Positions 5,271 through 55,093 of a DNA stretch of 55,093 nt are shown in pieces. The translations under genes were made by a program, and so were the position numbers. This DNA is from a virus: the IMG/VR virus record IMGVR_UViG_3300015171_000006, positions 1 to 55,093 of that record, one strand, 5' to 3'. The notes beneath the pieces are model-generated. The model ran no database searches and was not told where the DNA came from. It saw only the letters and a program-made list of their open reading frames with translations. The first letter of the stretch is position 1. Each line of letters opens with the position of its first letter.

Positions 5271-5479
5271 GCTGGTACTTTAATTTTATTCTTTTTATTA
5301 ATCACATTCGGTTTATTACCCTGTAAATGTCTTAAAAGAATTGCTTCAGTTTTCGCCGGGTCAGCATCAGCACTTTCAGCTACATTGCATCTTATAAGAT
5401 AGCTTCCCATACTTTCATCAAAATCAACTTCTTCTCCCGGCTTCCAGTTAATGTGTTTTTTTAAAAACCTTATCAGCAT
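5267..5479 (-). CDS. Small hypothetical protein downstream of capsid
   Basis: 70 residues, hydrophilic, with 'KKHINWKPGEEVDF' near the N-terminus and a lysine-rich end. No family is certain; small proteins here in related phages are sometimes head accessory proteins. It overlaps the glycosyltransferase start by 4 bases (ATGA) and is separated from the capsid gene by the hairpin at 5496-5527. Confidence 0.65.
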   Translation of the reverse strand: MLIRFLKKHINWKPGEEVDFDESMGSYLIRCNVAESADADPAKTEAILLRHLQGNKPNVINKKNKIKVPA

Positions 5480-5495
5480 AAATATTTATTAAAAT

Positions 5496-5527
5496 AAAAC
5501 CCCTGTTATATTTCAAACAAGGGTTTT
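5496..5527 (-). terminator. Terminator or attenuator after the capsid gene
   Basis: Read on the minus strand, AAAACCCTTGT pairs with ACAGGGGTTTT (one T-G wobble) across a 10-nt loop, followed by ATTTT. The wobble pairs only in the minus-strand RNA, which supports that direction. A partial terminator here would give high capsid expression relative to the connector genes. Confidence 0.65.
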
Positions 5528-5545
5528 ACATAAGATTAAAAAATA

Positions 5546-10061: not shown

Positions 10062-11546
10062 CTAATTACCATTCGGAGTTGCAACAGGCAAGGGCGGCAT
10101 ATTTTCAAAATCATCCAATGGCGTATATCCTGTAGGTATCCATGGCAAATCAAATTTAGGATCATCATATCGCTCCCAATCCATCATCTCACGTTTTTCA
10201 TTTGGCGTTAAATGCCACATTATAGCCAGCGATGCAGCCTTCCTTTCCAAATCCTGATGCAGCTCCGATATACCGCTTATATCAGCATCTATGTATCTTG
10301 ATTTTCCGTCTCCCTTCACTCTTACCGGCTCACCGTCTTGCCCTGTAATTAAAACGCCATCTTTAAAGTCAGGCAATAAATGTTTAACCAATGCATCTCT
10401 TACCCTGAAAATATTCGGCAAAATAGTATTGGTATAAAGCCGTTTGGTATGTGTAAGCACGTTACTTTCCGTGCTTGCGCTGTCGCTGTTAAATAAAATA
10501 TCACTTACGCCCCACACATTGCACAGCTTTTTAAAATCCACATTGCCAAGCTCCAGCACTCCCAAATCTTTAAGGTGGCTACCAAGCTGTATAGCACCCA
10601 TTTCACCATTTGCAAAAAAAGGAGCGCCGGCATTATCAGGGTTACTTATAAAGCGGTGAAAATTTTGTTTTCGCTTTCCAATTATATCAACTCTTTCTTC
10701 ATCTACACCCAGCCCTTTTTCGTAAACAATAGTTTCCACACCGCCGTTCTGCAATCTTGCCACAGAAGTATTCATATTACTATCCAGCCTGGTAAGCCTT
10801 TTTTGAAGAACTTTTAAAGGAGAAAGCCCGCGAAGCTCGCTGCCCATTATATTCATTTCCGGGTTAAAATATTTAATATGAATAACATCTTCAGCAGGTA
10901 TATTTTCCATAATTATCTTGCCTTCATATCTATAATCATAGGCAACAATGGTTCTGGGTAAATCATTGCTTATTTTTAAAATAACACCTTGCGGATATAG
11001 TAAATGCAACTGTATAGGCAAGCCAATGTTTACGCCATCTTCCGGCCTTTCTTTTAAAATAAAAGCTTCGCCATGCAAAAAAAGATTTGAATAAACACCT
11101 TCAAAAAATTCATACTTACTCATATCCTGGTGCGGATTTTCTATAAGAGCAGCCACCGGATCATCTTCCGGCAAATCTGTTAATGCTTTTGTTTGAAGTG
11201 ATTTGTATTTTATAACATTGTTATAACCCTTAACCTCTTTTTTCAGGTTCGTAAAAGCTTTTTTATCTGGAGTAGATAGATAACCGTAAAGAGGAACCAG
11301 CGCCGCAGTAGTTGCCAGCAGGCGAATGATGGAATAAATATCATCTGTGTTTAAATACCTGTCATTGGCTGTTTTAATACTCCATGCGGGGTAAATAGCT
11401 ATGTTACTATTTAAATTGGCGGCAATGTTAGCCATTGCAATATTTTCAAACCCGGTAGTGGCTGCAGCAAATCTTTTTAATTCCGTTACTTCCTGCGATA
11501 GCTGCTTAATAGCCTTATCCTTTTTGCCAAAATCAAATAAACCCAT
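10062..11546 (-). CDS. Portal protein, HK97 family
   Basis: 494 residues. Features of the HK97/SPP1-type portal: 'SIIRLLATTAALVPLYGY' near the start, 'FEGVYSNLFLHGEAFILKE' and 'PAEDVIHIKYFNPE' in the wing, and a helical stem with 'VLTHTKRLYTNTILPNIFRVRDAL'. It forms the dodecameric vertex through which DNA is packaged. Terminase would normally lie just upstream; here the 11.6-13.3 kb accessory island separates them. Confidence 0.92.
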   Translation of the reverse strand: MGLFDFGKKDKAIKQLSQEVTELKRFAAATTGFENIAMANIAANLNSNIAIYPAWSIKTANDRYLNTDDIYSIIRLLATTAALVPLYGYLSTPDKKAFTNLKKEVKGYNNVIKYKSLQTKALTDLPEDDPVAALIENPHQDMSKYEFFEGVYSNLFLHGEAFILKERPEDGVNIGLPIQLHLLYPQGVILKISNDLPRTIVAYDYRYEGKIIMENIPAEDVIHIKYFNPEMNIMGSELRGLSPLKVLQKRLTRLDSNMNTSVARLQNGGVETIVYEKGLGVDEERVDIIGKRKQNFHRFISNPDNAGAPFFANGEMGAIQLGSHLKDLGVLELGNVDFKKLCNVWGVSDILFNSDSASTESNVLTHTKRLYTNTILPNIFRVRDALVKHLLPDFKDGVLITGQDGEPVRVKGDGKSRYIDADISGISELHQDLERKAASLAIMWHLTPNEKREMMDWERYDDPKFDLPWIPTGYTPLDDFENMPPLPVATPNGN

Positions 11547-13345: not shown

Positions 13346-14884
13346 TTAATATTCTGCATCAGCATAAACTTTTTTAGGCACCAGCGTAAATATTTCACGC
13401 ATCATAAACATATCCATTAAATCAGGACTGTCACCATTTAACTTGGTTTTCATTTCATCTTTCTTTATAACCCGCAGCTTACCGTCACTATCAGGCTTTG
13501 CCCGCTTTATGGCTTTGCGCTCATATAAAAATCGTTGCCTCACAGTCATTTTAGTATCATACATCATATTTGCCACACGCTCATTAATTTTCATTTCACC
13601 ACGGTTAACTCTGTTACCGCTCCTGTAATAACATTGAGCCTTAAGGTGCTCATAATTTTCTGGCAATAACTTTCGTGTCTTGGGATCATATTTTGGGTTA
13701 GAATAATCTGGCAAAGCCGGGCTTCCATTATTAAACTCTTTGGCGCCAACAATATACCCGTCAATAAACTGGCCCACACCATCATTATCAAAAGCAATAT
13801 TGCTGTTTTGTGTTTTATGCTTTTTTGCCATATTCTCAATGCCGGCAATCACTTCATTACCCTTGCTCTTATCCATAATCAGCATATCATCCAGTTCAAA
13901 GCCGCTCCAATGCCCAACTATAAATTTATTACTTCCTTTCATAGCAATATCAGCCGTAATATAATTGCCATCATTTTTTACATCATACTTATTTTCAAAC
14001 ATGCCTATAAATTTATAATAATCATAAATATCAATGTCAGATAATATTACCTTCCAATTTCCTTCAAATAACTGAGCCTTGGTTTCTGCATCCTGCGCCA
14101 TCAGGTTTCCCAGGTACGAAGGGTTTACTTTTAAAAGCTCTTTATTATCATAAATACTACCTGATATAAAGGTTATAGACTTTACAAATTCCCTTGCATC
14201 TATGCCAGATTTTTGTACGGCATCTTCAATTAAATACCATCCTTTTTCAATCACCTCCTCATAACTATCCCCCCAAATATAATTCTCGCCATCTACAAGC
14301 ATATATCTTATCACGCCATCCCTTTCCGGTATAGGGAAGCCGGTATCTGCATCAATCCACCAATTAATTAAATCATAAACCCAGCTTTCAGGGTCAGGGT
14401 TGCATGTTGCCCTGCAGTAAGGCCGAACGCCTGATACGGATCTGTTCCTGGTAAGCAGGTAAAAAAACATTTTTTTTGAAAAATGGGTCAGCTCATCAAA
14501 ACCTATAAATGGTATCTGAGCTCCCTGCCAGTCAAATATATTTTTCTCATACTCTAAGTGGGAAAATTTAAGCTTGCATCCCGATTTAAAATACCATTCT
14601 AAGGAGCTTTCCTTAGGAACGGCGCCAATGCCAGGGTAAATCGTCATGGAAGTATCCCACAATCCACCCTCATTTCTTATCTGTGGAGATGTACGCCTGA
14701 ATATAACACCGCCAAAAGCAGGGTTATGAACGTCACGCAGCGGATCAAGTAAAAGAGTGAATGTTTTACCTACGCCTGCAGCAGCGCCGCCAATTATTAT
14801 ATCAGCAGCATTACTAAGCGCCTTGGTTTGATAACCCGGCTGCGGCTGTATCGTTAGCGTAGGTTTCTTTATTAGCTCTGCCAT
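13346..14884 (-). CDS. terL: Terminase large subunit
   Basis: 512 residues. Walker A variant 'GGAAAGVGKT' at 32-41, Walker B 'IPFIGFDELTHF' near 125-135, coupling-type motif 'RATCNPDP', and a C-terminal nuclease half with 'YITADIAMKGS' and 'NIAFDNDGVGQ' as acidic metal sites. It translocates DNA into the prohead and cuts the concatemer. It overlaps the small subunit by 71 bases. Confidence 0.93.
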   Translation of the reverse strand: MAELIKKPTLTIQPQPGYQTKALSNAADIIIGGAAAGVGKTFTLLLDPLRDVHNPAFGGVIFRRTSPQIRNEGGLWDTSMTIYPGIGAVPKESSLEWYFKSGCKLKFSHLEYEKNIFDWQGAQIPFIGFDELTHFSKKMFFYLLTRNRSVSGVRPYCRATCNPDPESWVYDLINWWIDADTGFPIPERDGVIRYMLVDGENYIWGDSYEEVIEKGWYLIEDAVQKSGIDAREFVKSITFISGSIYDNKELLKVNPSYLGNLMAQDAETKAQLFEGNWKVILSDIDIYDYYKFIGMFENKYDVKNDGNYITADIAMKGSNKFIVGHWSGFELDDMLIMDKSKGNEVIAGIENMAKKHKTQNSNIAFDNDGVGQFIDGYIVGAKEFNNGSPALPDYSNPKYDPKTRKLLPENYEHLKAQCYYRSGNRVNRGEMKINERVANMMYDTKMTVRQRFLYERKAIKRAKPDSDGKLRVIKKDEMKTKLNGDSPDLMDMFMMREIFTLVPKKVYADAEY

Positions 14885-16223: not shown

Positions 16224-17924
16224 TCATCTTCCCGGAAGTTCAAGCAACTCCGGGTTAAGCCTTATACGGCCTCCTTCTCTTTTTATAAGTTCCAATGTAT
16301 TTAATGCACTTAGCGCATTATTAAAACCGCCGGAGTTAAAAGAATATTTACTTTCCGTTTTATAGGCAAGCTCTTCTTTTGAAAAATCTTTATGAGTGTT
16401 TGCCAGCAACACATCATAAATTTCTCTTTCGCACTTACTTAGCTTATTGCGATATGTTTCAATTGAATATTCCTGGGGAGTAAAATTGAACTCAGATAGG
16501 TTTCCTGATGCCTGTAATTTACCGTTCTCTCTTTTTATCAATCCTTTTGTAAAAAGTTCACTAACTGCATTATTAAATCCGCCTGAATTTGGAGAGTAAC
16601 CCGCCGCTATCCCTACCTGGGCCTTAGAAAAAAACCGATCCTGGAAAGATGCTAAAAATTGAAGTACAGCATAAGAACATTTACCTAACTGTCCACTGCT
16701 GTTATTATTTTCAATTTTATTAATATTACCAGCAAATTTTTGATTGTGATTTACAAAATTTTTAGATGGATTTTCTACAACTTTACTGGCGATATTATTT
16801 ACAACTTCTGATTTAAAGTAAGCCATGGGTTCTAAGTCAAACGCACTTCTAACTTTATTAATTTGCTTATATAATTTTTGCAAATAATCTTTTTGCTGAA
16901 TTATCAGTGTGTCCTTACTTTTTAGTTCCTGTTTCAACTTTACATTTTCATCTTTTAATCGTACGATCTCATTATCATTTGATACAGTTTGTACTGATTT
17001 TATTACGCTTTTTTCTTTTTTCTGCTCAACAGGCTTATCTAATAATTTATTTAGCTTCTCAACCCATACAGTAACATCAATTTTCTTTTTAGCAGAATCA
17101 ATAATCTCAGTTGATTTTTTGGGATCCGGATGGAATGTTTTGCGCTCCAAAACCTGAATTAGTTGCGGGTTCTCTGTTAATCCTATAGCCCAGCATTCAC
17201 CCTGTTTTAACCCCGGCAAAGACTTTATGATATCTTTTGTATTATCAACCTGCCTCAGCTCCAGCCATTGCTGAATTGATTTTAATGAATTCTTTCCTAC
17301 TTGTTTATGCAATAAGCTGAAGGCTGATATTTCCAGGATGGCTTTATTTACTTCTTCAGCCCTTTGGTTTATCAGTGTGTAACCAAGCCGGGCATTTCTT
17401 CCCATACGGGCAAGGCGCTCCAGTGAGGCATATACTTTTGAATGTTGTGGCTGCAATCTTTGCGGAATAAACTCTGCAGCTTCTTCAATAAAAATGTGCC
17501 TCATCCCATAGCTTTTATTTTCATACATAAGCAGATCTACAGTTTCCTGAACGATCCTTATCCATGAACTTTTATTGATAAGCTCAGGAGAATAAAGATC
17601 AATTACAAGGCTTACGTTTTCCTTCATAGCAGCTCTCACAATATCAACCGCATTATTTACTGTAAGCCGGATATCACTTCCCTCGCCGCCGGCAGTTACA
17701 ACAGGATAACCAATATGTTTATCAATACCGATCTTTAAATTCTTCCATACTCCCACCGGATCATATACAATTATCGGGATGTTATTATCAAGCAACTCCT
17801 CAGCTGCTTTCATTGCTGTATAAGTTTTGCCTGCATCACGTATACCGAGAATGGCATTACCCTGGCCGGCATAATCTATTGCAGGAATAGAGAAAGTGTT
17901 GCTTAATACTAATTGATTATTCAT
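16224..17924 (-). CDS. HerA-like ATPase with tandem C-terminal winged-helix repeats
   Basis: 566 residues. Walker A 'GIRDAGKT' at 27-34, Walker B 'HIFIEEAAEFIP' near 140-150, and 'GRNARLGYTLINQRAEEV' further on, as in HerA/DUF87 DNA translocases. A charged coiled coil (about 300-370) leads to two similar winged-helix repeats, both with 'SGGFNNA' (about 445-490 and 520-560). HerA proteins form hexamers that pump DNA, often with a nuclease such as NurA; no NurA is seen here. A role in phage DNA processing or defence is possible. Confidence 0.75.
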   Translation of the reverse strand: MNNQLVLSNTFSIPAIDYAGQGNAILGIRDAGKTYTAMKAAEELLDNNIPIIVYDPVGVWKNLKIGIDKHIGYPVVTAGGEGSDIRLTVNNAVDIVRAAMKENVSLVIDLYSPELINKSSWIRIVQETVDLLMYENKSYGMRHIFIEEAAEFIPQRLQPQHSKVYASLERLARMGRNARLGYTLINQRAEEVNKAILEISAFSLLHKQVGKNSLKSIQQWLELRQVDNTKDIIKSLPGLKQGECWAIGLTENPQLIQVLERKTFHPDPKKSTEIIDSAKKKIDVTVWVEKLNKLLDKPVEQKKEKSVIKSVQTVSNDNEIVRLKDENVKLKQELKSKDTLIIQQKDYLQKLYKQINKVRSAFDLEPMAYFKSEVVNNIASKVVENPSKNFVNHNQKFAGNINKIENNNSSGQLGKCSYAVLQFLASFQDRFFSKAQVGIAAGYSPNSGGFNNAVSELFTKGLIKRENGKLQASGNLSEFNFTPQEYSIETYRNKLSKCEREIYDVLLANTHKDFSKEELAYKTESKYSFNSGGFNNALSALNTLELIKREGGRIRLNPELLELPGR

Positions 17925-17932
17925 TGTAATGT

Positions 17933-18217
17933 TTATTGATAAATTAAACCCGCTGCGTCTATAAATATTTCTGGTTCTTTTTCATAATATTCATCAGGCC
18001 TGCTTTCGGCTACTAAAAATATTTGCCACCTTTTTGCCTTACTTATTTTACTGATAAAAATTCCTTTCATATACTGCACATTTTCTTCAACTACTTTTTT
18101 TCTCCATTCAGTTCTTTCTTCCTCTGTAAGCTCGTTTTCATCCAGCCGCCGGAACAGATAATCTTCTATCTGCATCTCATTGTATAACGAGCCGTTTAAG
18201 TATAGCTGGAGCTTCAT
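17933..18217 (-). CDS. Hypothetical protein between recombinase and ATPase
   Basis: 94 residues, acidic N-terminus with 'YLFRRLDENELTEEERTEWR', then a beta-rich end. Overlaps the recombinase stop by 4 bases (ATGA), so it is co-translated with it. No family recognised. Confidence 0.6.
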   Translation of the reverse strand: MKLQLYLNGSLYNEMQIEDYLFRRLDENELTEEERTEWRKKVVEENVQYMKGIFISKISKAKRWQIFLVAESRPDEYYEKEPEIFIDAAGLIYQ

Positions 18218-19086
18218 AGTGCCGCGATTAATTTTTCAGGAATTAATACCGCTGATAAAATAACATCCGCTTGGGCTATCCGGCTGCTAAGGGTTTTCTT
18301 AGAAAGCTTTAAATAAAAATCTGCCGTGGTTTTTATTTGCTGATGGCCAAGAAAATCGCTTACATCTTTTATATCAATTCCGGCATCATGTAAATGCGTA
18401 GCCCTGCTGTGCCGAAGGCTGTGCGGCTTCACTGCACGGTTAATACCAATTCTATGTACTCCCTGCCAAAATACCTGCTGGATAGATCTTACAGAATATT
18501 GCTCATTATACTGGCCTTCAAACAACCATTTCTTCGGTTTATTTTTTTCGGCTATGTAATAGGATTTAAGAAGCTCCAGTGTGTCTGCAGGTATGGGAAC
18601 TTCACGATCTTTAAAACCTTTGGCGCCTTTTACCCTAAGCAGCCGGGTATCGCTTTTAATATGAGACAATTCAATATTTATAATCTCGCCAATGCGAAGG
18701 GCACAGGAATAAAATAATTGAATGATTGCCCGGTGTTTTAAATTTTGGTAAGAATTTACAAGCCTGCTAATCTCCTGGATGCTGAATATTTCCGGCAGGT
18801 AATTGGTAGCTCTCGGATATGGTATATCCTCAAAGTTTACAGGCTTTTTTAATACAAGTTTATAAAAGTGCCTGATAGCTGCTGTGAATTGCTTATGATA
18901 GTTTTGGTTTTTTATGGCGCCAAGAAATATTTTTATTTCCTCAAATGGCAGTGGCTTTGGCTTACCATTCATTGCATGAAGAAAAATACCCAGGCAACTT
19001 GCATAAGTCTCAATGGTGCTATCAGCATATTTTAACGCCGTTAGCTCAATTTTAAATTTCCGCATTAGCTCATCATACCGGGTCAT
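18214..19086 (-). CDS. Tyrosine recombinase (XerC/D-like) beside cassette-like sites
   Basis: 290 residues. The N-terminal SAM-like DNA-binding domain spans about 1-90; the catalytic domain has Arg131 ('CALRIGEI'), His222 and Arg225 ('HSLRHSRATH'), His248 ('FLGHQQ') and Tyr258 ('DFYLK'). It is not the main phage integrase type, which lies at 32608. It lacks the extra helix typical of integron IntI, yet it lies next to attC-like sites at 19494-19588 and 20638-20728 and an inverted TTGTTAAATGCA 36 bases from its start. It could move those cassettes or resolve genome multimers. Confidence 0.85.
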   Translation of the reverse strand: MTRYDELMRKFKIELTALKYADSTIETYASCLGIFLHAMNGKPKPLPFEEIKIFLGAIKNQNYHKQFTAAIRHFYKLVLKKPVNFEDIPYPRATNYLPEIFSIQEISRLVNSYQNLKHRAIIQLFYSCALRIGEIINIELSHIKSDTRLLRVKGAKGFKDREVPIPADTLELLKSYYIAEKNKPKKWLFEGQYNEQYSVRSIQQVFWQGVHRIGINRAVKPHSLRHSRATHLHDAGIDIKDVSDFLGHQQIKTTADFYLKLSKKTLSSRIAQADVILSAVLIPEKLIAAL

Positions 19087-19670: not shown

Positions 19671-20540
19671 TCAACTTTGGTAATTAATTTTATTAGCCGT
19701 TTCCAATTTCCTTAAATCATTCGTTCCGCAAAAGCCATTACATTCAATCAATGGCTTTACTTCCCTTCCCTTCATCATTGAAATATCTTTGATGTCTGGA
19801 TATTTTGGATGCGGTTTTAGAAAAACTAAGCCGCCGCCTTTGCTTTGGTCTTTCAGCATCGTTACCGGCTCTCCTTTTATATCGGTCAAATCATGCTCTA
19901 CTTTTGCCATTGCGTCAAACTTTTCAGGAAATTCCCTGCCTATCTTTTGCCAGTAACCAATACCGCCCTGAACACATCCGGTTTTCCAGCAGTTATTATT
20001 TAAGTACCCAAGTTTATAAGTAATAGGCAGTTCGATTTTTGTAAACAAATCGTTTGCCTTCTGAATTATTTTTATGCAATCTTTCTTTTTCAGCAATTCG
20101 TTTATCAAAGGGAAAATAGGCTTTGATGCAGGATGATTAAGTTTCATTGATAACGCCCTGTCAATTTCATCTATATCAAAACCGAATGCCTGATATGAAT
20201 AATTATTTTTTCTTTGCCAGCGTTCCCGTACTAATCGTTTCAGCATTTGAGAACACTTTGCCCCGGTGGAAACATTTAAAGAAACATTGTCATACCAAAC
20301 GTCTTGTATGCAGGTAAAATCTGGATTAGTTATTGTTTCAATCTCCTTACCATACCACGCCTGACAATCCTTTAAAAAACGGTAACTATCATCATCTTCA
20401 TTTTTAGTATCAATAAAAACAATTCTTGTGTTTTCTTCTCCAAACCAATCAATACATAGTTTACAAGTAACCGCACTTGTTACACCACCACTCCACCAAG
20501 CAATGACCGGAAATTCTTTATTTATTTTATCAGTCCTCAT
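19671..20540 (-). CDS. PP-loop ATP pyrophosphatase (PAPS reductase-like)
   Basis: 289 residues. 'VIAWWSGGVTSAVT' near the N-terminus is a PP-loop (SGGxxS) and 'IVFIDTKNEDDDSYRF' the next strand, as in PAPS reductases and related adenylating enzymes. Cysteines at 'GAKCSQMLKR', 'NNCWKTGCVQG' and 'ECNGFCG' could bind a metal or iron-sulfur cluster. Phage PP-loop proteins are sometimes tied to DNA or RNA base modification. The substrate here is unknown. The gene is bracketed by two attC-like sites. Confidence 0.75.
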   Translation of the reverse strand: MRTDKINKEFPVIAWWSGGVTSAVTCKLCIDWFGEENTRIVFIDTKNEDDDSYRFLKDCQAWYGKEIETITNPDFTCIQDVWYDNVSLNVSTGAKCSQMLKRLVRERWQRKNNYSYQAFGFDIDEIDRALSMKLNHPASKPIFPLINELLKKKDCIKIIQKANDLFTKIELPITYKLGYLNNNCWKTGCVQGGIGYWQKIGREFPEKFDAMAKVEHDLTDIKGEPVTMLKDQSKGGGLVFLKPHPKYPDIKDISMMKGREVKPLIECNGFCGTNDLRKLETANKINYQS

Positions 20541-32607: not shown

Positions 32608-33678
32608 ATGGATAAATTAAACCTTACTCCTACTATTAATCTTCAGCGCCGGGACAAAGACGGCAAGTGTGCTGTGAGAATAAGATCCACCATAAAACGT
32701 AAGGTTACCTACTATCCAACCAGTATAAGTGTTTTTCCTGATCAATTCAAAAACAGGGAAATTGTAAAGCATCCCAATAAAATAATTTTCAACACGGCTA
32801 TCAGAAATAAGATGTATGAAATTGAGCGGGATTATCTTGAAGGAAAACTAACCGGCAAATCTAAAAATACTGATTTTTATGCCTTCTCTCAAAAAAAGAT
32901 AACACAGCAAAAAGGTAAAGATTCTGTGGGTACCTGGAAGCACAAAAAAAGTTATCTGAATAAACTGCAGGAGTTTAAACCAGTTCTGCATTTCTCAGAT
33001 GTTACTCCTTCCTTTATGCTTGATCTTGAAAATTATTGCAGGGCAAAAGGCAACAAGCCAACAACTGTATGGAGCACGGTAAAATTTATAAAAACAATGA
33101 TCAATGCTGCGCTCAATGATGAAGTGATAAGCAGCAACCCGCTGAAAGGTTATAAAGGAAAAGCTTATGTCAATCCTGAGAGACAATATTTAACTGATGA
33201 AGAAATTGAGAAGATTGAAAACTTTGCAGCAACTTCCAAAAATAAAACGCTTGTAAAGGTGTCTTATTGGTTCTTGTTTGGAGTTTTTAGCGGTTTGAGA
33301 TACGCGGATATTAAAAACTTTGATAAGAAAAAAATTATAGACGGCCGCATAATTTTAAGGACTGGCAAATCTGATATTGATGTAAGTATTAAAATTCATC
33401 CCAAACTAAAAAATGTTTTGGATAAAATAAGTCCGGATGTTTTTACCAATCAAAAGATGAATGATTACTTGAAGCATATTGCTATTGCTTGCGGTATTGA
33501 AAAGAATTTAACGATGCATATCGGTCGTCATACACATGCCGTTTATTTCCTCAATCATGGCGGCTCCATGGAAACACTTAGCAAACTGCTTGGCCACTCA
33601 AAAATAGGCACGACATTAATTTATGGCCGGATAACCAATCAGAGGATAGATAGTGAAGTGGACAGAGTTTGGAGTTAA
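32608..33678 (+). CDS. int: Phage integrase, tyrosine recombinase (Bacteroidota arm-binding type)
   Basis: 356 residues. Arm-binding beta domain (about 1-80, 'GKCAVRIRSTIKRKVTYYPT'), SAM-like core-binding domain (about 105-185), and catalytic domain with Arg231 ('SGLRYAD'), His304 and Arg307 ('HIGRHTH'), His330 ('LLGHSK') and Tyr339 ('LIYGRI'). It should integrate the phage into the host chromosome. It lies in the middle of the window, not at an end, so this is not a normal integrated prophage map. Confidence 0.9.
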   Translation: MDKLNLTPTINLQRRDKDGKCAVRIRSTIKRKVTYYPTSISVFPDQFKNREIVKHPNKIIFNTAIRNKMYEIERDYLEGKLTGKSKNTDFYAFSQKKITQQKGKDSVGTWKHKKSYLNKLQEFKPVLHFSDVTPSFMLDLENYCRAKGNKPTTVWSTVKFIKTMINAALNDEVISSNPLKGYKGKAYVNPERQYLTDEEIEKIENFAATSKNKTLVKVSYWFLFGVFSGLRYADIKNFDKKKIIDGRIILRTGKSDIDVSIKIHPKLKNVLDKISPDVFTNQKMNDYLKHIAIACGIEKNLTMHIGRHTHAVYFLNHGGSMETLSKLLGHSKIGTTLIYGRITNQRIDSEVDRVWS

Positions 33679-33740: not shown

Positions 33741-34340
33741 TTACAAACCTTTCCAGTGAGGTAAATTTAAAACATCACATATCCTGTTATAATTATTTAT
33801 TCTTTCAGATAGTCCGTTGAAACCGCCATTTACAATAAGACAAACCCACTCTTGCGGAGTGTAATCCTTATTACGAATTGTTGAATGAACCTTACCCTCA
33901 ATTCCCATATCTGCATACTTGTTTAAATTTCTGGTAGTCCAATACCAAAAGGCTGATTGCATTGCGCCGGGATATTCGGCTAACTTTTCAGGGTTGTCTA
34001 AAAGAACATAAGCATCATTATAAAGATAATGGCTCACGGCTGCATAATTATTTCTGCCAGTAACTTGTATTAAGCCCCTGCCTTTAAACTTCATTCCGTC
34101 ACCTTTTTGATTATTACCTAATGATAACCGGCCTTCATATTCTGCACCGCTGGCATATTCTGTAGTGGCTTTAAAAGCATTACTCTCATGTATTACTTGC
34201 GCAAAAAAACTTGCAATTCTTAACGGTGTATTTACTTCGTACTTATCAGAAAAAAGATTGAAGTTATCACTTACTACAGGCAATAAATTTGCATGTGTAT
34301 TGGGTGAAAATCTTTGCAGTATGTCAGGTGTAATTGTCAT
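33741..34340 (-). CDS. Endolysin, glycoside hydrolase family 19 type
   Basis: 199 residues. Catalytic Glu52 in 'FFAQVIHESNAF' and Glu61 in 'ATTEYASG' fit the GH19 pair; 'KGRGLIQVTGRNNY' and 'AFWYWTTRNLNKYAD' are further hallmarks. It should cleave peptidoglycan glycan strands at the end of infection. No signal peptide is seen, so it needs a holin. Its ATG overlaps the upstream stop. Confidence 0.88.
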   Translation of the reverse strand: MTITPDILQRFSPNTHANLLPVVSDNFNLFSDKYEVNTPLRIASFFAQVIHESNAFKATTEYASGAEYEGRLSLGNNQKGDGMKFKGRGLIQVTGRNNYAAVSHYLYNDAYVLLDNPEKLAEYPGAMQSAFWYWTTRNLNKYADMGIEGKVHSTIRNKDYTPQEWVCLIVNGGFNGLSERINNYNRICDVLNLPHWKGL

Positions 34341-34537
34341 TATGCGCTCATCTTATTTAAAACAGTTTCTAAAAAATCCTTCTCACTTTTGGTAAGAAGA
34401 TTTTGTTTTCTTTCCGCAATCATTTTTTTGACATCTTTGAATAGATTGTCATAATAATCTACCCTATCCCGAAGATGTTTGGTTGCCTGCTTATACTCTT
34501 CAATCTCGCCTTCAAGTATTTTCTGTTCTGGTGTCAT
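34340..34537 (-). CDS. Small coiled-coil protein of the lysis cluster
   Basis: 65 residues, almost all charged helix ('EGEIEEYKQATKHLRDRVDYY'), no membrane segment. It lies directly upstream of and overlaps the endolysin start. Could be a regulator or partner of a lysis protein; no family recognised. Confidence 0.6.
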   Translation of the reverse strand: MTPEQKILEGEIEEYKQATKHLRDRVDYYDNLFKDVKKMIAERKQNLLTKSEKDFLETVLNKMSA

Positions 34538-34549
34538 GCGGCTTTGGTT

Positions 34550-34864
34550 TTAGTTAAAACATTCCCGGTTTAAATTAATAGGCTTTCTCAATTCTTCTAA
34601 ATACAACAATCTCTTTTCTCTCCAATTTGAAGTATCTCTTACACTCCCGCTTGTTGTATTATCGCCATCTCTTATTTCAAAATAAAAAAATCGCTCACCA
34701 CGAAAATAAAATGGCTGAACCTCTGGCTGCCTTACTTTAGTAATACAGATATTGCCGGATAACGATACTTTAGTATAATATACTTTATTACAGGATTGCG
34801 TGAGCAATAAAAATATAAAACACATCAAAGGTTTCACGCAGCGGCTTGTTGTGATTGTAACCAT
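34550..34864 (-). CDS. Small lipoprotein, possible outer-membrane spanin subunit
   Basis: 104 residues. N-terminal 'CVKPLMCFIFLLLTQSCNK' gives a signal peptide with a lipobox Cys near residue 25. A second ATG at 34825 gives a shorter signal without positive charge. It is next to the endolysin, so a spanin-like role is reasonable, but spanins usually show a proline-rich linker, which is not seen here. Confidence 0.55.
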   Translation of the reverse strand: MVTITTSRCVKPLMCFIFLLLTQSCNKVYYTKVSLSGNICITKVRQPEVQPFYFRGERFFYFEIRDGDNTTSGSVRDTSNWREKRLLYLEELRKPINLNRECFN

Positions 34865-35310
34865 GATTGATACATGCTTTCAGCCAGAGATGCAGCTTCG
34901 CCGAATGTTACCTTTTGCCCATCCTTTACCTGCTTTAAAAGTTTGTAAATTTTTGCCGCAACTGAAGTATAAAATTCTTCTTTCCTGTCTGTCGAAAATC
35001 CGCCAAAACTATCAACAATTTTTTTAGCCAATGCCTGCACATCCGCCTCTGTTGAGTTTTCATTTATGCCTTGCAAAAGCATTTCATCTGCTAAAATGAT
35101 TGGCAGGTTCTTTCTTAAAATGGTTACAATCTCATTATCAATATTACCAGGGATAAGTCCGGTAACAAGATCAACAATGCCAGAATTTAAGCCATCTTTA
35201 ACAGCTTGCGTTACATCAATTGCGGTTTGTAAAAAAGTGTGATTTGCATTGTGGAATAGGTCTCCTATCCATCCGAATAATTTACCAAAAAAGGTGTGGT
35301 GTTGTGCCAT
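34834..35310 (-). CDS. Amphipathic hypothetical protein of the lysis cluster
   Basis: 158 residues. 'MAQHHTFFGKLFGWIGDLFHN' is aromatic and amphipathic, followed by helices rich in Ala, Val and Ile. No full membrane helix. Overlaps the lipoprotein start by 31 bases. Its place suggests lysis or virion release, but no family can be named. Confidence 0.6.
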   Translation of the reverse strand: MAQHHTFFGKLFGWIGDLFHNANHTFLQTAIDVTQAVKDGLNSGIVDLVTGLIPGNIDNEIVTILRKNLPIILADEMLLQGINENSTEADVQALAKKIVDSFGGFSTDRKEEFYTSVAAKIYKLLKQVKDGQKVTFGEAASLAESMYQSWLQSQQAAA

Positions 35311-35336: not shown

Positions 35337-35558
35337 TTAGTGACTTAGTTTAATAAGAATATAAAGAATAATACCAGCGAATAAGAACATAGCAGCTATA
35401 ATAAATCTCCATACATTTTTTTTCAAAGGATCATCATAAGGGTTATGCAATTTTCTTACAATAGCCTTTTGCTTGCGCCTCTTTGCTTCCATCTTCATCA
35501 GTTGGCAGAATGAAAGTCCGCTAAACCATTCACGATAATTTTTCATCTTTCGGATCAA
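35337..35558 (-). CDS. Small C-tail membrane protein
   Basis: 73 residues with a very basic N-terminus ('MKMEAKRRKQKAIVRKLHN') and one membrane helix at about 50-70. Could be a holin-accessory or inner-membrane spanin-like protein. Overlaps the end of the next gene upstream by 29 bases. Confidence 0.6.
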   Translation of the reverse strand: MIRKMKNYREWFSGLSFCQLMKMEAKRRKQKAIVRKLHNPYDDPLKKNVWRFIIAAMFLFAGIILYILIKLSH

Positions 35559-35925
35559 TTATTTTAGGCGCTTCTGTCTTTGTTGTAAAAGGCAAATCTG
35601 CACATGGCTTTTGTAAAAGAGTTCCATTGTCAGTTTCTATTACATGAGGATCCGCTACTGTTAATTTGTTCATCATTAATCCCCAGGCCGCAGCAAAAGC
35701 AACTATCTTTAAAACGATCTTCATACCATTCCCAGGTAATATTTCACTGGCATCAAATGAGAATGTTTTTTGCGCCCAATCAATCACAGTTGGGAGACCT
35801 GATAAGAGAAGCATTATTTTATTTATCCATCCCCAAACCTTAAAGAACTTTGGAGACCGGGCCTGAAACCTTACAAGGTTTTCTCTAAGCCATGCTCCTA
35901 CATCTGATTGCTTTTGTGTGTCCAT
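35530..35925 (-). CDS. Probable holin-like membrane protein
   Basis: 131 residues with two hydrophobic segments: about 34-51 ('IMLLLSGLPTVIDWA') and about 68-87 ('GMKIVLKIVAFAAAWGLMM'), and a hydrophilic C-terminus. Size, two membrane segments and nearness to an endolysin suit a holin. No family match is certain. Confidence 0.6.
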   Translation of the reverse strand: MDTQKQSDVGAWLRENLVRFQARSPKFFKVWGWINKIMLLLSGLPTVIDWAQKTFSFDASEILPGNGMKIVLKIVAFAAAWGLMMNKLTVADPHVIETDNGTLLQKPCADLPFTTKTEAPKIIDPKDEKLS

Positions 35926-35929
35926 AATT

Positions 35930-36334
35930 TTATATTATATTGGTTACATCAAGTGCTGTGTGAATAATTATTTTTATGTTTCCTTCCTTGTTTAAAACAG
36001 GATAGCTTTCCGGTGTCCAGTATCTTATCTGAAATTCATCAGTGCCGGGAATTGGTATATCATACCTCACAATTGGCATCAAATCTTTTTGCTTTTTAGT
36101 GATTACATTCATCATACTTTGCATAAGAATATTTTCATTCCTCACCTCTCCGTTTGGGTTATCAGGAAATCTTTCAAACAGTCCATAGCCTACAACATCT
36201 TCTCTTTTCATTCCCAGTGTTTTTAAAAAAACATCAGAAATATCAACAATGGTAAACTTTGGCACATCAGGCGCAAACAAAATATAATTGTGCGCCAGGT
36301 ACTCAAAAACTTCTTTATAATCTACCTCAATCAT
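35930..36334 (-). CDS. Stand-alone PAS-domain sensor protein
   Basis: 134 residues, all one domain. 'FTIVDISDVFLKTLGMKREDVVGYGLFERFPDNP', in parts, then 'MPIVRYDIPIPG' and 'RYWTPESYPVLNKEGNIKIIIH', closely follow the PAS input domain of bacterial sensor histidine kinases. There is no kinase or ATPase domain after it. It overlaps the coiled-coil membrane gene by 8 bases and the receiver gene lies beyond that, so the three probably act together. Confidence 0.82.
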   Translation of the reverse strand: MIEVDYKEVFEYLAHNYILFAPDVPKFTIVDISDVFLKTLGMKREDVVGYGLFERFPDNPNGEVRNENILMQSMMNVITKKQKDLMPIVRYDIPIPGTDEFQIRYWTPESYPVLNKEGNIKIIIHTALDVTNII

Positions 36335-36767
36335 TTTGCTTTTTTACACCGTAAAATCCTCTTGCCGAGAAACTTAAAAGAGTGCTGTTATGGTCTCTTA
36401 CCATTGTTCTCAACTCATCAATTTTTTGAACCATCATTTCAACCTTGCTATCACTTGCAGTTTTAATATTTTGCAAATCTTCTCTCACATCTGTAAGCCC
36501 TTCTGAAATTTCTTTATAATCAGAAAGTATTTCGGCAACCTGTTTAGTTGTTAAAGCATTATACTTCGCCAGTTCAATCTGGGAAGTGTACTCATATTGA
36601 ATTTTTTTAAACTCCCGGTCAGCAAGCTCAATAACTTCATCTTTTTTTACCTTAGCCTTTTCAAGGTTGTTGGCTAACCACCACTGGCCATATTTTAACG
36701 CACCTCCAAAAAAGCTAACTATCATTATAAAAATTCCGGATAATTTACCCCAGTCTGTGCCATTCAT
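36327..36767 (-). CDS. Membrane-anchored coiled-coil protein between PAS and receiver genes
   Basis: 146 residues: N-terminal membrane helix at about 8-27, then a long coiled coil (about 33-125) with 'LTDVREDLQNIKTASDSKVE', and a short end. The shape resembles the stalk of a sensor kinase, but no catalytic ATPase is present and no clear H-box is seen. It overlaps both neighbours by a few bases. An alternative is an inner-membrane spanin. Confidence 0.6.
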   Translation of the reverse strand: MNGTDWGKLSGIFIMIVSFFGGALKYGQWWLANNLEKAKVKKDEVIELADREFKKIQYEYTSQIELAKYNALTTKQVAEILSDYKEISEGLTDVREDLQNIKTASDSKVEMMVQKIDELRTMVRDHNSTLLSFSARGFYGVKKQND

Positions 36768-37246
36768 GTTCTTGCTATATTTATTAATTCATCAAAAGCA
36801 TCCTCAATCATCTGTGAACCTCTTTGCGCTGTTTCATAAAAAGCATCTATATAATGAATGTGATCAACAATTTCATTTATATGCGTTACCAACGTAATTA
36901 TTAAAGAAGATGCAGATCCCTTTTCAATAAACTTTGAACCGTAAACGCTGTTCATGTAATCGATAATTTCGCTTTTATGACTATCCCCGCTAACCATTAT
37001 AAAACAGCAATGCTTATTAATCTTTGCAATTTTCTTAACAAGTTCAAGTCCTGTTATATCACTATTTAATTTGTTGTCAACAATAACAATATGAACATCT
37101 TCCGTTAGTTCGTCAAGCAACTTGTATGGATCATTAAAGAGCTTATAATTTTTGAAGCCACTTTCTTTTAAGATGATGTCTATTAGTTCAGTCATTGCCG
37201 GATCATCGTCAACGCCTAATATTCTTATGTCTAATGGTTGTTTCAT
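36764..37246 (-). CDS. Response-regulator receiver protein in the late operon
   Basis: 160 residues from the ATG at 37246. Receiver domain with Asp13-Asp14 ('ILGVDDDPAM'), phospho-acceptor Asp57 ('IVIVDNKL'), Ser86 ('MVSGDS') and Lys108 ('FIEKGS'), so all key residues are kept. After the domain comes a C-terminal helical extension (about 115-160). No DNA-binding output is seen. The start follows the spike stop codon by two bases and the end overlaps the membrane gene by 4. Confidence 0.85.
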   Translation of the reverse strand: MKQPLDIRILGVDDDPAMTELIDIILKESGFKNYKLFNDPYKLLDELTEDVHIVIVDNKLNSDITGLELVKKIAKINKHCCFIMVSGDSHKSEIIDYMNSVYGSKFIEKGSASSLIITLVTHINEIVDHIHYIDAFYETAQRGSQMIEDAFDELINIART

Positions 37247-37248
37247 AA

Positions 37249-39357
37249 TCAATTCCATTTACCTCCCTTAAGCCCTTGCGGATATTTACCTCCATTCGTT
37301 GCAGGAGGTATTGTACTTGCACCTCGCAAAGCAACATTTCCCGTATATGGTATCTCTATAAGAGGATTAATTGTTGTTTGAAAAACTGTGCCTATGGCAT
37401 CCGTCCAAAGCCATGTACTTAGATTTGGAGTTGCATTGCTTTGTGTTGCATTAAAATCATTCCTGATAACCGAACCTGTGGAATAGTTTGTAAGCAGAGC
37501 ATTAGCGTCGAAACCTGTTGCTGCCTTCCATCCTGTAAATGTGTAATAAGTTGTAGTAACCGAATTAAGAGTAATCCTAAAAGGCTGCGTTATTGTATTT
37601 AAAAATTCATAGTACGTGCTATCCCATGTTATAACTAATGGGATAACGGTTGTGTCTGAAAGAATATAAAAACTATGCACAGGTGCTCCCCATACAATAT
37701 TTCTTTTTCCATTGAAAGTCTGTGGTAACGAATCAGTTGTTACGTTCAAATAAAAACCGTAGCTCAGAGGGTTTACAATTGTATTACCAGTCATAGAAAC
37801 ACCCCCGGTTCCTCTCCCTAAAAAAAAGCCGCCATCGCCTGTATTTTGTATCCAATTACTGTCTGCTATAAGACCAGCATTTAGATACTTTCCGTGGGTA
37901 GTCTGGGCATCACAATAAAGCCCGTAACTCAAACTATTTACCGGTGTTCCTGTTCCGCTTGTTGGTGTCCCTACATCGCCAATATAATTGCGCCTAAACC
38001 AACGGCCTGAGTGCGCCTCATTAACCGTAGCCGTTCCGCAATAAACAACAGCGCCATCATTTTTGTTTTGCAGCGCACTGTCAAAAACATTATATTGAAG
38101 TGTGATGCTGTCAGTAGGCAATACGCTTATAGAATTGCCCGGAATAATAACATCGCAATAACCCGATTTAGAAAAAGTGGAATACTCAACTAATAAATCT
38201 TTTGACGTTGCTATTAAAGCATTCCCGTTTCCGTCTCCATTTCGTCCAAGCCCAGGGATCAGAGATGTATTTTTTACATAACACCTTCTTACTACAGTTA
38301 ATTGTGTATTATAGCCGTGATTAATGCCATTGTTAAGTGAATTGAGTATGCTATCATCCTGCATCAGCCACGATGTTGAGCTATTGATGTAAATGCCGGT
38401 ATTACCTGTATTGTTAATAGTGCAATTCAAAATTTGAATACCGATATTACCGCCTGATGTAATGTTATGGTCATTGCACCCGCTAAAGTTGAGGTTAGAA
38501 AAAGTTATATAGTTTTTATTAATAGGAAGCGAGACATTATTATTTCTTGTTGCCACCTGAACATTAACAGGCGCACCGGATGAATAAACAGTTAAACGAT
38601 TTGTAGATTTATCATAAAACCATTCGTTTTGCTGATCTAAAGTTGATAAACTGTTTTGAATGAAATATCCCCATCCGTTTTGAAGTGTGTAAGGGCTTGA
38701 AGTTGATAGTGTAAATTGTTTTGTGGAGGTATTAAATGATATGATTGAATCTGCATCAATTATCCATCGCCTTGTGCGAAGAACTGCCGCTGCGCCTGTC
38801 CAGTCAGGACTGGCTGATAAAGTGTTATCAGTGAATTGAGTTGTTCCTGAAACTGCTGTGCTTGTTGCCCATCCTGTGTTGGGTGTGCGCCCCATTCCTA
38901 CAGGTGTACTACCATTAATTAAAACTATGTAAAGAGATGAAGAAAATACAGGCAGTGCTTCACTTTGCCAGATATTCGCACCCATGTTAGTCCATGTAGT
39001 AATTGTGTAGAATGATGACAAGATTGGTTTGTTGCCAGTACCATAAGCCCCGTAAACAATAGGGTTTCCGCTTGTTCCTGATTTGTTTATTAATAAAGTA
39101 GTATCGTTAAAATTATCCCCTCTGTTGAATAAAATTGAATCCCCTACAGCAACGGTATTATTTAAAGTTATCAGGTTGCATTTAGAAATTGTTCTAAAAG
39201 GATTACCAATTGAGCCGTTGCCTGTTACATCATTACCTGCATTAGCAAAATACCAGTTTGTTGCAAGCAAATGAAATTGCACCGGCTTCATCCAATCCAT
39301 AAATGAACCGTAAGAATGAGCAATAAAGAATAATAATATCGTTAGTAAATATTTCAC
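37249..39357 (-). CDS. Right-handed beta-helix tail spike, secreted-type N-terminus
   Basis: 702 residues, GTG start at 39357. An N-terminal hydrophobic signal-like segment (about 1-17) is followed by 'NWYFANAGNDVTGNGSIGNPFRTI', the usual entry to a pectate-lyase-type beta-helix, and many short Asn/Gly/Thr-rich turns. Probably binds or cuts host polysaccharide. A Sec-type signal on a spike is unusual. Its start overlaps the upstream stop by 3 bases. Confidence 0.8.
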   Translation of the reverse strand: MKYLLTILLFFIAHSYGSFMDWMKPVQFHLLATNWYFANAGNDVTGNGSIGNPFRTISKCNLITLNNTVAVGDSILFNRGDNFNDTTLLINKSGTSGNPIVYGAYGTGNKPILSSFYTITTWTNMGANIWQSEALPVFSSSLYIVLINGSTPVGMGRTPNTGWATSTAVSGTTQFTDNTLSASPDWTGAAAVLRTRRWIIDADSIISFNTSTKQFTLSTSSPYTLQNGWGYFIQNSLSTLDQQNEWFYDKSTNRLTVYSSGAPVNVQVATRNNNVSLPINKNYITFSNLNFSGCNDHNITSGGNIGIQILNCTINNTGNTGIYINSSTSWLMQDDSILNSLNNGINHGYNTQLTVVRRCYVKNTSLIPGLGRNGDGNGNALIATSKDLLVEYSTFSKSGYCDVIIPGNSISVLPTDSITLQYNVFDSALQNKNDGAVVYCGTATVNEAHSGRWFRRNYIGDVGTPTSGTGTPVNSLSYGLYCDAQTTHGKYLNAGLIADSNWIQNTGDGGFFLGRGTGGVSMTGNTIVNPLSYGFYLNVTTDSLPQTFNGKRNIVWGAPVHSFYILSDTTVIPLVITWDSTYYEFLNTITQPFRITLNSVTTTYYTFTGWKAATGFDANALLTNYSTGSVIRNDFNATQSNATPNLSTWLWTDAIGTVFQTTINPLIEIPYTGNVALRGASTIPPATNGGKYPQGLKGGKWN

Positions 39358-51272: not shown

Positions 51273-51707
51273 TTACCGGTGAAAGATGCTATGCTGAAAA
51301 GTTAGCACCCGATCAACATACTCCCTGGTATTATTAATGTTGTAATTCTGCGTAAAGTCGCCAGAAAGTTTTGTTGTTACACATTGAAGATTATCAGTTA
51401 ATTCAAGAGCAGTTTGTCTGTCAGGATAAATGGCCATTAATACAAGCCCGGCAATAGCATCAGCCGCCGCACCGTCATTATATTTCTCTTTAAATGTGTG
51501 AATCGTTACCCGCATAGATGTTGATGTATCTGCTTTGTATTGAGAAGAAGTATCATTATTAGTAATGCCGCCAAATACAATATAATTTTCATCCTCAATA
51601 TTATCAGGCGCTTTTTGATAAAAAACAGGGATAGGCACATCATTATATTTCAGCACCGATAAGGCAGAATTGTAAGCCACTCTTAAAGGATAATTTACAT
51701 CTCTCAT
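51273..51707 (-). CDS. Tail terminator / completion protein (DUF3168-like)
   Basis: 144 residues. 'VPIPVFYQKAPDNIEDENYI' and 'MRVTIHTFKEKYNDGAAADA' are typical of the small tail-completion proteins that cap the tube under the head. In other phages it follows gp10; here gp10 is at 1506-2027, at the other end of the window. A possible promoter (TTG, 20 bases, TACTTTTA at 51714-51721) lies just upstream. Confidence 0.75.
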   Translation of the reverse strand: MRDVNYPLRVAYNSALSVLKYNDVPIPVFYQKAPDNIEDENYIVFGGITNNDTSSQYKADTSTSMRVTIHTFKEKYNDGAAADAIAGLVLMAIYPDRQTALELTDNLQCVTTKLSGDFTQNYNINNTREYVDRVLTFQHSIFHR

Positions 51708-51919: not shown

Positions 51920-52081
51920 ATGACAAAGTTTTGCCTAATTGGGCTAATATTTTTTTCTTGCAATATTTACCGAAAAATCCCATCTAAAATGTCAACTGTT
52001 CATCCCAAGCATGAATACAGAATTGGTGATACAATTATTATAAAAAATAAGAAATACTGTGTAATAGATGTGAGAATGTAA
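51920..52081 (+). CDS. 53-residue lipoprotein, accessory cassette gene
   Basis: ATG at 51920, TAA at 52079-52081. 'MTKFCLIGLIFFSCNIYRK' gives a short signal peptide and lipobox with Cys14; the rest has 'HEYRIGDTIIIKNKKY'. It ends 13 bases before repeat unit U2, as the other cassettes do before their repeat. Function unknown. Confidence 0.55.
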   Translation: MTKFCLIGLIFFSCNIYRKIPSKMSTVHPKHEYRIGDTIIIKNKKYCVIDVRM

Positions 52082-52094
52082 AGGGATTTTATCT

Positions 52095-52500
52095 ACGTAT
52101 GATATTGAAAGATTGCTCAAAAACCAGCAATCTTGCTTCGCTCTCAAAGACATTTTTTATTTTACTTTTTAAGCCAGCCGGCCAAGCTATGCAGCTCCTA
52201 TGAAAGCTGATTTTTTGCCGCATACGCTAAATTAAAAAATCACTTTCCAGCCAGTCTCTCGGCTAACCTGAGTAACATAATATTATCTTATAATCAAGGC
52301 TCTCATACTCTGATAAATAAAGAACGTTCGCTGTTATGATTTTTTAAGTAGCAAATAATTATAAAGGCAGATGGAACTACTTAAAAAATCATAACAGCGA
52401 AGCGGAAATTCAAGCCTCACTTATAAGAAACCATTATGTTAAACAGGCACTACACAGCCCCCAAAAAAGTAAAATAAAAAAGCCCGCGCCACTGGTTTTT
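52095..52500 (+). repeat. Complete cassette repeat unit U2
   Basis: The one complete copy. Nested inverted parts: TTTTTTATTTTACTTTTT (52153-52170) against 52464-52481 (18 bp perfect); 52273-52301 against 52413-52441 (29 nt, imperfect, TAACATAAT..CTTATAA..AGGCT); and the core arms 52327-52351 and 52377-52401 (25 bp perfect). It starts with acgtatgatattgaaag and a GATTGCT/AGCAATC hairpin and ends with GCCACTGGTTTTT. Genes lie right up to both edges. Confidence 0.93.
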
Positions 52501-52526
52501 ATTATGTAGAATGTATATTGTGGAGA

Positions 52527-53183
52527 ATGGGAATTTATAAACTATACTTGTTTCTTTTACTGCTTTCACCTATAGCCTCTTTTCCTCAAATAAAAAGAAT
52601 AAATAATATTAACGTGAGCCTTAAAAACCTTATATCAGAAACATCCAAAATTATGGATATTTTGCACATAAGTAAAAGGGTCAATTTAAAAAAAGATTCT
52701 CCATCCATAAACGTTCTTATAGATAGTACCGTCCTTCCATTTAATGCGTTTTTTGGCGGATTACATAAAAATGAAAGAGGTGTTATAACTCCATCAGGCA
52801 ACCATGCTTTAAGGTACTACAGATATCCTGCTATAAGGATGAATCCGCTTTTGCATTTAATAGTTTCAAAGAAGAAAGATACTACTGCTTTTGTCAGGCT
52901 TAAGGCAATATCAATTTTTGTTCACGAATTGGTTCATTATTTACAAGCTACTTGGTGGGTACACAACATTACTGTAACCTCGTATGATCAAATGGAATCT
53001 TATATATCTCAACCTGATGAATTTGAGGCTTATGGAGCAGAAGCATATTTCCTTTTAAAATATTACAATGAAAAATTATTAAGTAGTATAATGTACTCCA
53101 AAAACACACAAGAAACAAAAATGAAATTATTAATCAAATCATACTACTCAACCGTATATCCGTGGAGAGCTAAAATTTTTTAA
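52527..53183 (+). CDS. Secreted putative zinc metallopeptidase-like protein, cassette gene
   Basis: 218 residues from the ATG at 52527. Signal peptide 'MGIYKLYLFLLLLSPIAS'. 'SIFVHELVHYLQ' (His133-Glu134-His137) is an HExxH zinc motif, and Glu residues in 'QPDEFEAYGAEAY' could be the third ligand. It follows repeat U2 by 26 bases. Could act on host cell wall or proteins in the periplasm; no known family named. Confidence 0.7.
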   Translation: MGIYKLYLFLLLLSPIASFPQIKRINNINVSLKNLISETSKIMDILHISKRVNLKKDSPSINVLIDSTVLPFNAFFGGLHKNERGVITPSGNHALRYYRYPAIRMNPLLHLIVSKKKDTTAFVRLKAISIFVHELVHYLQATWWVHNITVTSYDQMESYISQPDEFEAYGAEAYFLLKYYNEKLLSSIMYSKNTQETKMKLLIKSYYSTVYPWRAKIF

Positions 53184-53535: not shown

Positions 53536-53883
53536 ATGGCTAAGATTCTAATAGTTGATGATGAGCAAGACCTTTTATATGTTGTAAAAATCCTTTTAAC
53601 AAAAGAAGGTTTTGAAGTTATAACACATTCCACTTATTCAAATGTTGAAGAAATTGTACTAAGGCATTCTCCTGATTTAATTCTTTTGGATGGAGTGATT
53701 CACGGAGGTTCAGGTCGGGAAATTTGTAAAGAACTCAAAAAAAATTACCCTATACCAGTTGTATTGTTTTCAGCACATAGCCCAATTTCAAAAACCTATA
53801 AAGATTACGATGCAGACGGTTTTATTCAAAAGCCTTTTGATATACCGGACTTTATAAATACTATTAAGTCATACCTCAATTAA
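53536..53883 (+). CDS. Single-domain response-regulator receiver protein, cassette gene
   Basis: 115 residues, one receiver domain. Asp8-Asp9 ('ILIVDDEQD'), phospho-acceptor Asp52 ('LILLDGVIHGG'), Ser79 ('LFSAHS') and Lys99 ('FIQKPFD') are all present. No output domain. It could tap into a host phosphorelay. A terminator lies at 53952-53988. It is a different gene from the late-operon receiver at 36764-37246. Confidence 0.88.
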   Translation: MAKILIVDDEQDLLYVVKILLTKEGFEVITHSTYSNVEEIVLRHSPDLILLDGVIHGGSGREICKELKKNYPIPVVLFSAHSPISKTYKDYDADGFIQKPFDIPDFINTIKSYLN

Positions 53884-54811: not shown

Positions 54812-54932
54812 TTTTTACCCAAGGATTAATCCTATTACAATGCCAATTCTAATTGCTTTCACTATAAGTCTATAAGGGATACCAAATAACAATTTTAATT
54901 AACGCAGTCAGTTTTAGAACGGTAAATTTACC

Positions 54933-55093
54933 ACGTATGATATTGAAAGATTGCTCAAAAACCAGCAATCTTGCTTCGCTCTAAAAGACATTTTTTATTT
55001 TACTTTTTAAGCCAATCGGCCAAGCTATGCAGCTCCTATGAAAGCTGATTTTTTGCCGCATACGCTAAATTAAAAAATCACTTTCCAGCCAGT
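54933..55093 (+). repeat. Cassette repeat unit U3 (left half, runs off the window)
   Basis: Matches 52095-52255: start block, GATTGCT/AGCAATC hairpin, TTTTTTATTTTACTTTTT box and the following block. The last 77 bases (55017-55093) are identical to U2. The copy stops at the window end. Adding the 67 bases 52256-52322 of U2 would connect it to U0 at position 1. Confidence 0.92.

Follow-up and report, generated by a model that had tools for sequence, protein, structure and literature searches.

Vibriophage VP882 encodes VqmA, a PAS-domain protein that senses the state of the host and brings about lysis (PMC8284805); PIT4 is a phage protein known to bind host kinases (PMC10714779); and in the F1 cluster mycobacteriophages Girr and NBJ, deletion of the holin-like protein LysF1b, whose single membrane segment is N-terminal, whose topology is predicted as N-out/C-in, and whose tail is highly charged, alters lysis timing (PMC13056207). 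Stand-alone CheY-type receivers (PF00072) are predicted in other Caudovirales and in large DNA viruses, and a search of viral structure models showed both receivers and PAS domains to be predicted in other phages too. A survey of mostly openly accessible literature yielded no description of receiver or PAS domains within a phage lysis region, and no pertinent paper on phage-encoded response regulators or histidine kinases.

The stretch of DNA considered here (the window, 55,093 nt) is a 55-kb IMG/VR record from a tailed phage of Bacteroidota bacteria, with head/packaging, replication, tail, and lysis modules. Since it also carries two integrases, both tyrosine integrases but of different type (18214-19086, minus strand; 32608-33678, plus strand), the phage is probably temperate. 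Elsewhere in the window are a second terminase-large-subunit-like protein (16224-17924, minus strand; phrog_2666, E 7e-7) near the main terminase (13346-14884), methyltransferase and glycosyltransferase genes between the head and connector genes (3157-5270, minus strand), and a phosphoadenosine phosphosulfate reductase-like gene (19671-20540, minus strand; phrog_424, E 4e-45). In the late region, an initial annotation had described three overlapping genes for a receiver, a membrane-anchored coiled coil, and a PAS domain, here designated RR, CC, and PAS, between the spike and the holin and endolysin genes. The order on the minus strand bears this placement out, with a GH19 match for the endolysin and a weaker profile match for the spike:

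37249-39357, minus strand: 702-aa beta-helix tail spike, upstream of RR (Beta_helix, E 1e-4, under the cut-off)
36764-37258, minus strand: RR, one receiver domain extended by a long C-terminal helix (Pfam PF00072, residues, AlphaFold2)
36327-36767, minus strand: CC, with a single membrane segment at the N-terminus and a charged tail that is coiled coil in part (hydropathy, heptad test)
35930-36334, minus strand: PAS, a stand-alone PAS domain with no output domain (tblastn identity, AlphaFold2, PDB matches)
35530-35925, minus strand: 131-aa protein with two predicted membrane segments, a holin candidate (hydropathy; no family match in Pfam or PHROGs)
35337-35558, minus strand: 73-aa protein with one predicted membrane segment, a putative holin (hydropathy; no family over the cut-off in Pfam or PHROGs)
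34834-35310, minus strand: 158-aa lysis-region protein, function not assigned (no relative found in PHROGs or in further searches including an IMG/VR scan)
34550-34864, minus strand: 104-aa lipoprotein-like protein whose hydrophobic N-terminal segment ends in Cys, outer-spanin-like by inspection (sequence, hydropathy)
34340-34537, minus strand: 65-aa charged helical protein (sequence; no Pfam family over the cut-off)
33741-34340, minus strand: GH19 endolysin (phrog_181, E 2.3e-44; PF00182, E 1.3e-8)

RR overlaps CC by 4 nt and CC overlaps PAS by 8 nt, all on the same strand. With its start at 37258, RR also overlaps the spike gene by 10 nt; an alternative start at 37246 (M5) is the one given in the initial annotation. 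Third-position GC is 0.28-0.32 for RR, CC, and PAS, like that of the neighbouring late genes, so there is no obvious sign of recent insertion. As had been claimed, none of the three has a kinase domain: a Pfam scan of ten late proteins found no histidine kinase dimerisation or ATPase domains. The late cluster does not hold a complete two-component system, in which a kinase would accompany the receiver.

RR scores 48.1 bits against Pfam Response_reg (PF00072), well over the cut-off of 30.2 (E 1.4e-12), and its catalytic residues are intact: the acidic D17/D18/D19, the phospho-acceptor D61, S90, and K113. The AlphaFold2 model (pLDDT 84.8) is a canonical receiver, with a Z score of 17.8 to the solved receiver 3crn. 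RR is a receiver by both profile and catalytic residues, with phosphorylation predicted at D61, and the earlier description of it as intact, with all phosphorylation residues, is upheld. Its identity to the cellular receivers found does not exceed about 31%. Fold and catalytic residues are shared with stand-alone CheY-type receivers, but RR differs from these in its place in a lysis region, in having no kinase in its gene cluster, and in its long last helix, of 48 residues in the model (116-163), where heptad periodicity is marginal (p 0.03). In the VIA-align table only the receiver part of RR is represented, the long helix lying outside it.

For PAS, the score against Pfam PAS_9 is 25.8 bits (E 1.3e-5), just below the cut-off of 27. 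By tblastn, however, PAS matches PAS domains within large sensor proteins of Bacteroidota at 31-41% identity across nearly its full length, and PAS domains of plasmid-borne PAS/kinase/SpoIIE proteins match it likewise; the best E value against accepted PAS domains is about 1e-23. The AlphaFold2 model (pLDDT 89) has a PAS fold, with LOV/PAS structures as the best PDB matches. By fold and homology, this is a complete stand-alone PAS domain, like those of sensor kinases, as originally proposed. It resembles the PAS subfamily of sensor kinases and SpoIIE phosphatases (FPDNP...YD...RYW...IIH..DVT) over nearly the whole domain, but is phage-encoded, stands alone, and terminates a few residues past the DVT motif with no output domain; any output must therefore run through contact with another protein. 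There is no Cys in its sequence, and so no LOV-type flavin adduct would be expected. With VqmA it shares the property of being a phage-encoded PAS domain, but VqmA has a DNA-binding domain and acts on transcription, whereas the PAS domain of the window fills its protein and leaves no second domain.

This PAS subfamily is common in the order to which the host of one related prophage belongs: it was found (E <= 1e-15) in 81 of 250 genomes from that order, nearly always inside larger proteins, with stand-alone copies rare. In one bacterial locus (L107), a stand-alone PAS gene of 160 aa (844-1326) overlaps a single-receiver gene (1323-1760) by 4 nt, and the pair is followed by a receiver-PAS-kinase gene in what is a signalling operon; another (L215, 7667-8074) is an orphan stand-alone copy amid ordinary chromosomal genes. 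An alignment of cellular PAS domains recovered no viral relative, and its lead protein had no phage match.

CC has one hydrophobic segment by hydropathy, at residues 6-24. A shuffle test supports heptad periodicity in residues 76-132 (p 0.005) but not in 33-75 (p 0.90), and CC is therefore only partly coiled coil; of the membrane-anchored coiled coil first described, the N-terminal anchor stands, while the coil shrinks to the distal part. A weak charge bias hints at a C-in topology, which would probably place the charged tail in the cytoplasm. Related phages with neither RR nor PAS have proteins of similar architecture, with one membrane segment and a charged tail, which lie either between the tail fibre and the endolysin or where the tail module ends (10587-10841 and 10842-11195 in L170; 10883-11269 in L101; shorter ones elsewhere), and no sequence similarity between CC and these was detected. 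With LysF1b, CC shares the one-segment, charged-tail layout, a place in a lysis cassette, and a neighbouring two-segment membrane protein; the likeness is one of layout alone, and LysF1b is without sensor domains. CC would seem to be an ordinary kind of lysis-cassette membrane protein, one that need not belong to a sensor.

Several other ideas concerning CC were set aside. Of three matches in bacterial genomes (E about 1e-5), the one examined (L099) is an ordinary chromosomal locus. The last part of CC contains A AAA AAG, which might suggest a programmed frameshift into PAS, but the PAS frame is not the one that a -1 shift enters. Histidine phosphotransfer by the single His of CC (in RDHN) was dropped, with no relative to compare.

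The initial annotation had staked its proposal on the three genes being kept together in some relative. This was not borne out: RR, PAS, and CC had no match in 50,697 phage records. A terminase search gave 78 viral and 5 bacterial related loci. Fragments are frequent among these records, which makes any single absence weak evidence, but several are 37-55 kb long. No receiver was found in 40 related phage records and no PAS_9 domain in 48, and the related phages held no credible relative of CC (one weak match, E 0.002, in a 456-aa frame). IMG/VR was also scanned with four single proteins (RR, PAS, the endolysin, and the 158-aa protein); such scans pick up close relatives only, and they gave none. 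Ten IMG/VR stretches fitted a degenerate DNA pattern made for the PAS subfamily, and tblastn with the late proteins of the window matched none of these. At the sensitivity used, the RR-CC-PAS trio is not a conserved unit.

Comparison with related records also bears on the organisation of the window. Two connector/tail genes lie next to each other and overlap in one of them (L085, 17637-18499); their counterparts are at 51273-51707 and 1506-2081 of the window and would be ~5 kb apart if the record is circular, with mostly opposite-strand accessory genes between. Direct repeats link 52080-52255 with 54918-55093 (94%) and 52323-52431 with 1-109, and since both contig ends lie in copies of one repeat, the record looks circular, opened within the repeat flanking an accessory cassette. 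Both repeat copies contain a perfect 25-bp inverted repeat with a 25-nt loop (5-29/55-79 and 52327-52351/52377-52401). A 221-aa protein (52518-53183, plus strand) has an N-terminal hydrophobic segment and a HELVHY motif, and is protease-like by eye, with no Pfam match. A second stand-alone receiver of 115 aa (53536-53883, plus strand; Pfam E 1.2e-19) is encoded in the accessory region between the tail and head-connector genes, on the opposite strand to the late cluster.

A parallel in layout comes from phages of Cellulophaga. In a structure search of viral models, the PAS model matched a protein of phi19:1 (E 7.9e-6) and one of phi18:3 (E 2.5e-4), the genes being assigned by protein length. 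In phi18:3 this is gp090 (172 aa), between the tail gene gp087 and the endolysin gp092; in phi19:1 it is gp108 (240 aa), after pectate-lyase/tail genes and before the lysozyme gp113. Relatives of gp090 are found in 24 records and of gp108 in seven, together 31 Cellulophaga phage records, which span Pachyviridae, Assiduviridae, Duneviridae, and unclassified phages. The families (phrog_10199 and phrog_31932, from phi18:3, phi19:1, Ingeline, phi38:2, and Nekkels, with a function label of unknown in PHROGs) are related to each other, and so count as one origin. In the five proteins examined, a membrane segment at the N-terminus is followed by a charged stretch and then the PAS-like part, and their genes come after pectate-lyase spike genes, mostly just before an endolysin: in phi38:2 the PAS-like gene overlaps an endolysin-type peptidase, while Ingeline has no annotated endolysin directly after it. 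Genes for such proteins are at

L198, 39102-39620
L199, 6203-6925
L200, 4935-5537
L201 (phi38:2), 4911-5546
L202, 5094-5723
L203, 3920-4540

Also in phi38:2, two overlapping genes, gp13 and gp14 (6156-6437 and 6340-6708), have the appearance of an inner/outer spanin pair.

These families resemble the window genes in their PAS-like fold (two matched by structure), in their place between spike and endolysin, and in tying the PAS-like part to a membrane segment and coil. They differ in that theirs is one fused protein, whereas the window has separate CC and PAS genes, and in topology: positive charge lies on the N side of the Cellulophaga membrane segments, so that the PAS-like part is predicted to be periplasmic, opposite to the orientation suggested for CC. 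By hhalign, window PAS and the Cellulophaga family have no significant match (probability 1%, E 0.053); the family profile has no match in the window; no Pfam PAS domain was detected in the Cellulophaga proteins; and no receiver is annotated beside their genes. The Cellulophaga case is a parallel in layout rather than a demonstrated family with window PAS. PAS-like domains beside lysis genes may recur, but the receiver does not; the Cellulophaga phages lend indirect support to a link between PAS-like domains and lysis genes.

The place of RR, CC, and PAS among the lysis genes could be fortuitous. They might be passenger genes (morons) from a host signalling operon, of use to the lysogen or of none, that by chance lie before the lysis genes. 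The lack of conservation favours this explanation, which we consider possible though rather unlikely; the phage has its second receiver in an accessory region, and the pair of overlapping PAS and receiver genes in L107 indicates that such a unit could be captured from a cell. The membrane protein CC, however, stands between RR and PAS, and the tight overlaps, neighbour-like codon composition, intact catalytic residues, and distance of RR from cellular receivers suggest long residence. Alternatively, the soluble proteins could be decoys, with free RR draining phosphate from host kinases and free PAS pairing with the PAS domains of host kinases of the same subfamily and inactivating these kinases, so that the host would behave differently while infected or lysogenic. 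Early expression is usual for host-takeover genes, whereas these three are inside the late gene cluster, and the low identity of RR to cellular receivers also tells against the idea. Partners for PAS do exist, given the distribution of its subfamily in host-order genomes, mostly in larger proteins, and PIT4 offers a precedent for a phage protein that binds host kinases (PMC10714779); on balance, the decoy explanation is unlikely. That RR starts right where the spike gene ends could conceivably mean that these are virion-associated proteins, part of the spike module, which would be delivered along with the tail or displayed on it and have nothing to do with lysis, but with cytoplasmic-type soluble domains, a membrane protein between them, and no convincing structural-protein match in PHROGs, this is very improbable.

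Late-cluster position, tight overlaps, and matching base composition favour a role in lysis timing, and we tentatively take as the best reading, though one still short of probable, that this is a lysis cassette with RR and PAS as accessory sensors acting on lysis timing. Other points for it are the intact receiver chemistry, the extended RR helix, the PAS domain with no output domain, the one-segment charged-tail proteins of related phages, LysF1b, and the Cellulophaga PAS-like layout. On the other side, RR and PAS are absent from the related phages examined, there is no CC relative by which to check constraint, and the Cellulophaga proteins are predicted periplasmic, with no annotated receiver and no significant profile match. 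CC would here be a lysis protein that crosses the membrane once and keeps its charged tail in the cytoplasm, and RR and PAS would be soluble, cytoplasmic, and co-expressed with it from the late gene cluster. Because no kinase is encoded nearby, the input to RR would come from the host, by phosphorylation from a histidine kinase or a small phosphodonor. The long last helix of RR, or ligand-bound PAS, might then dock on the CC tail and so shift when the holins fire, such that the physiological state of the host would advance or delay lysis.

A fuller version of the lysis-timing reading would have host-phosphorylated RR, together with PAS, act on the membrane coil near the holins as a lysis clock, the two-component network of the host timing lysis after commitment to lytic growth, and would make this one instance of a wider tendency for PAS-like sensors to be placed between spike and endolysin in Bacteroidota phages; this is quite doubtful. 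The domains and the gene arrangement are real, and a role in lysis timing is a plausible proposal. In the best-known phage decision that draws on host state through a PAS domain, VqmA of VP882 acts on the choice between lysogeny and lysis, by transcription; a sensor in the lysis cassette would act later, on burst time. Because Cellulophaga phages with PAS-like proteins between spike and endolysin are in culture, the idea can be tested on laboratory pairs of phage and host, as the single case alone would not allow.
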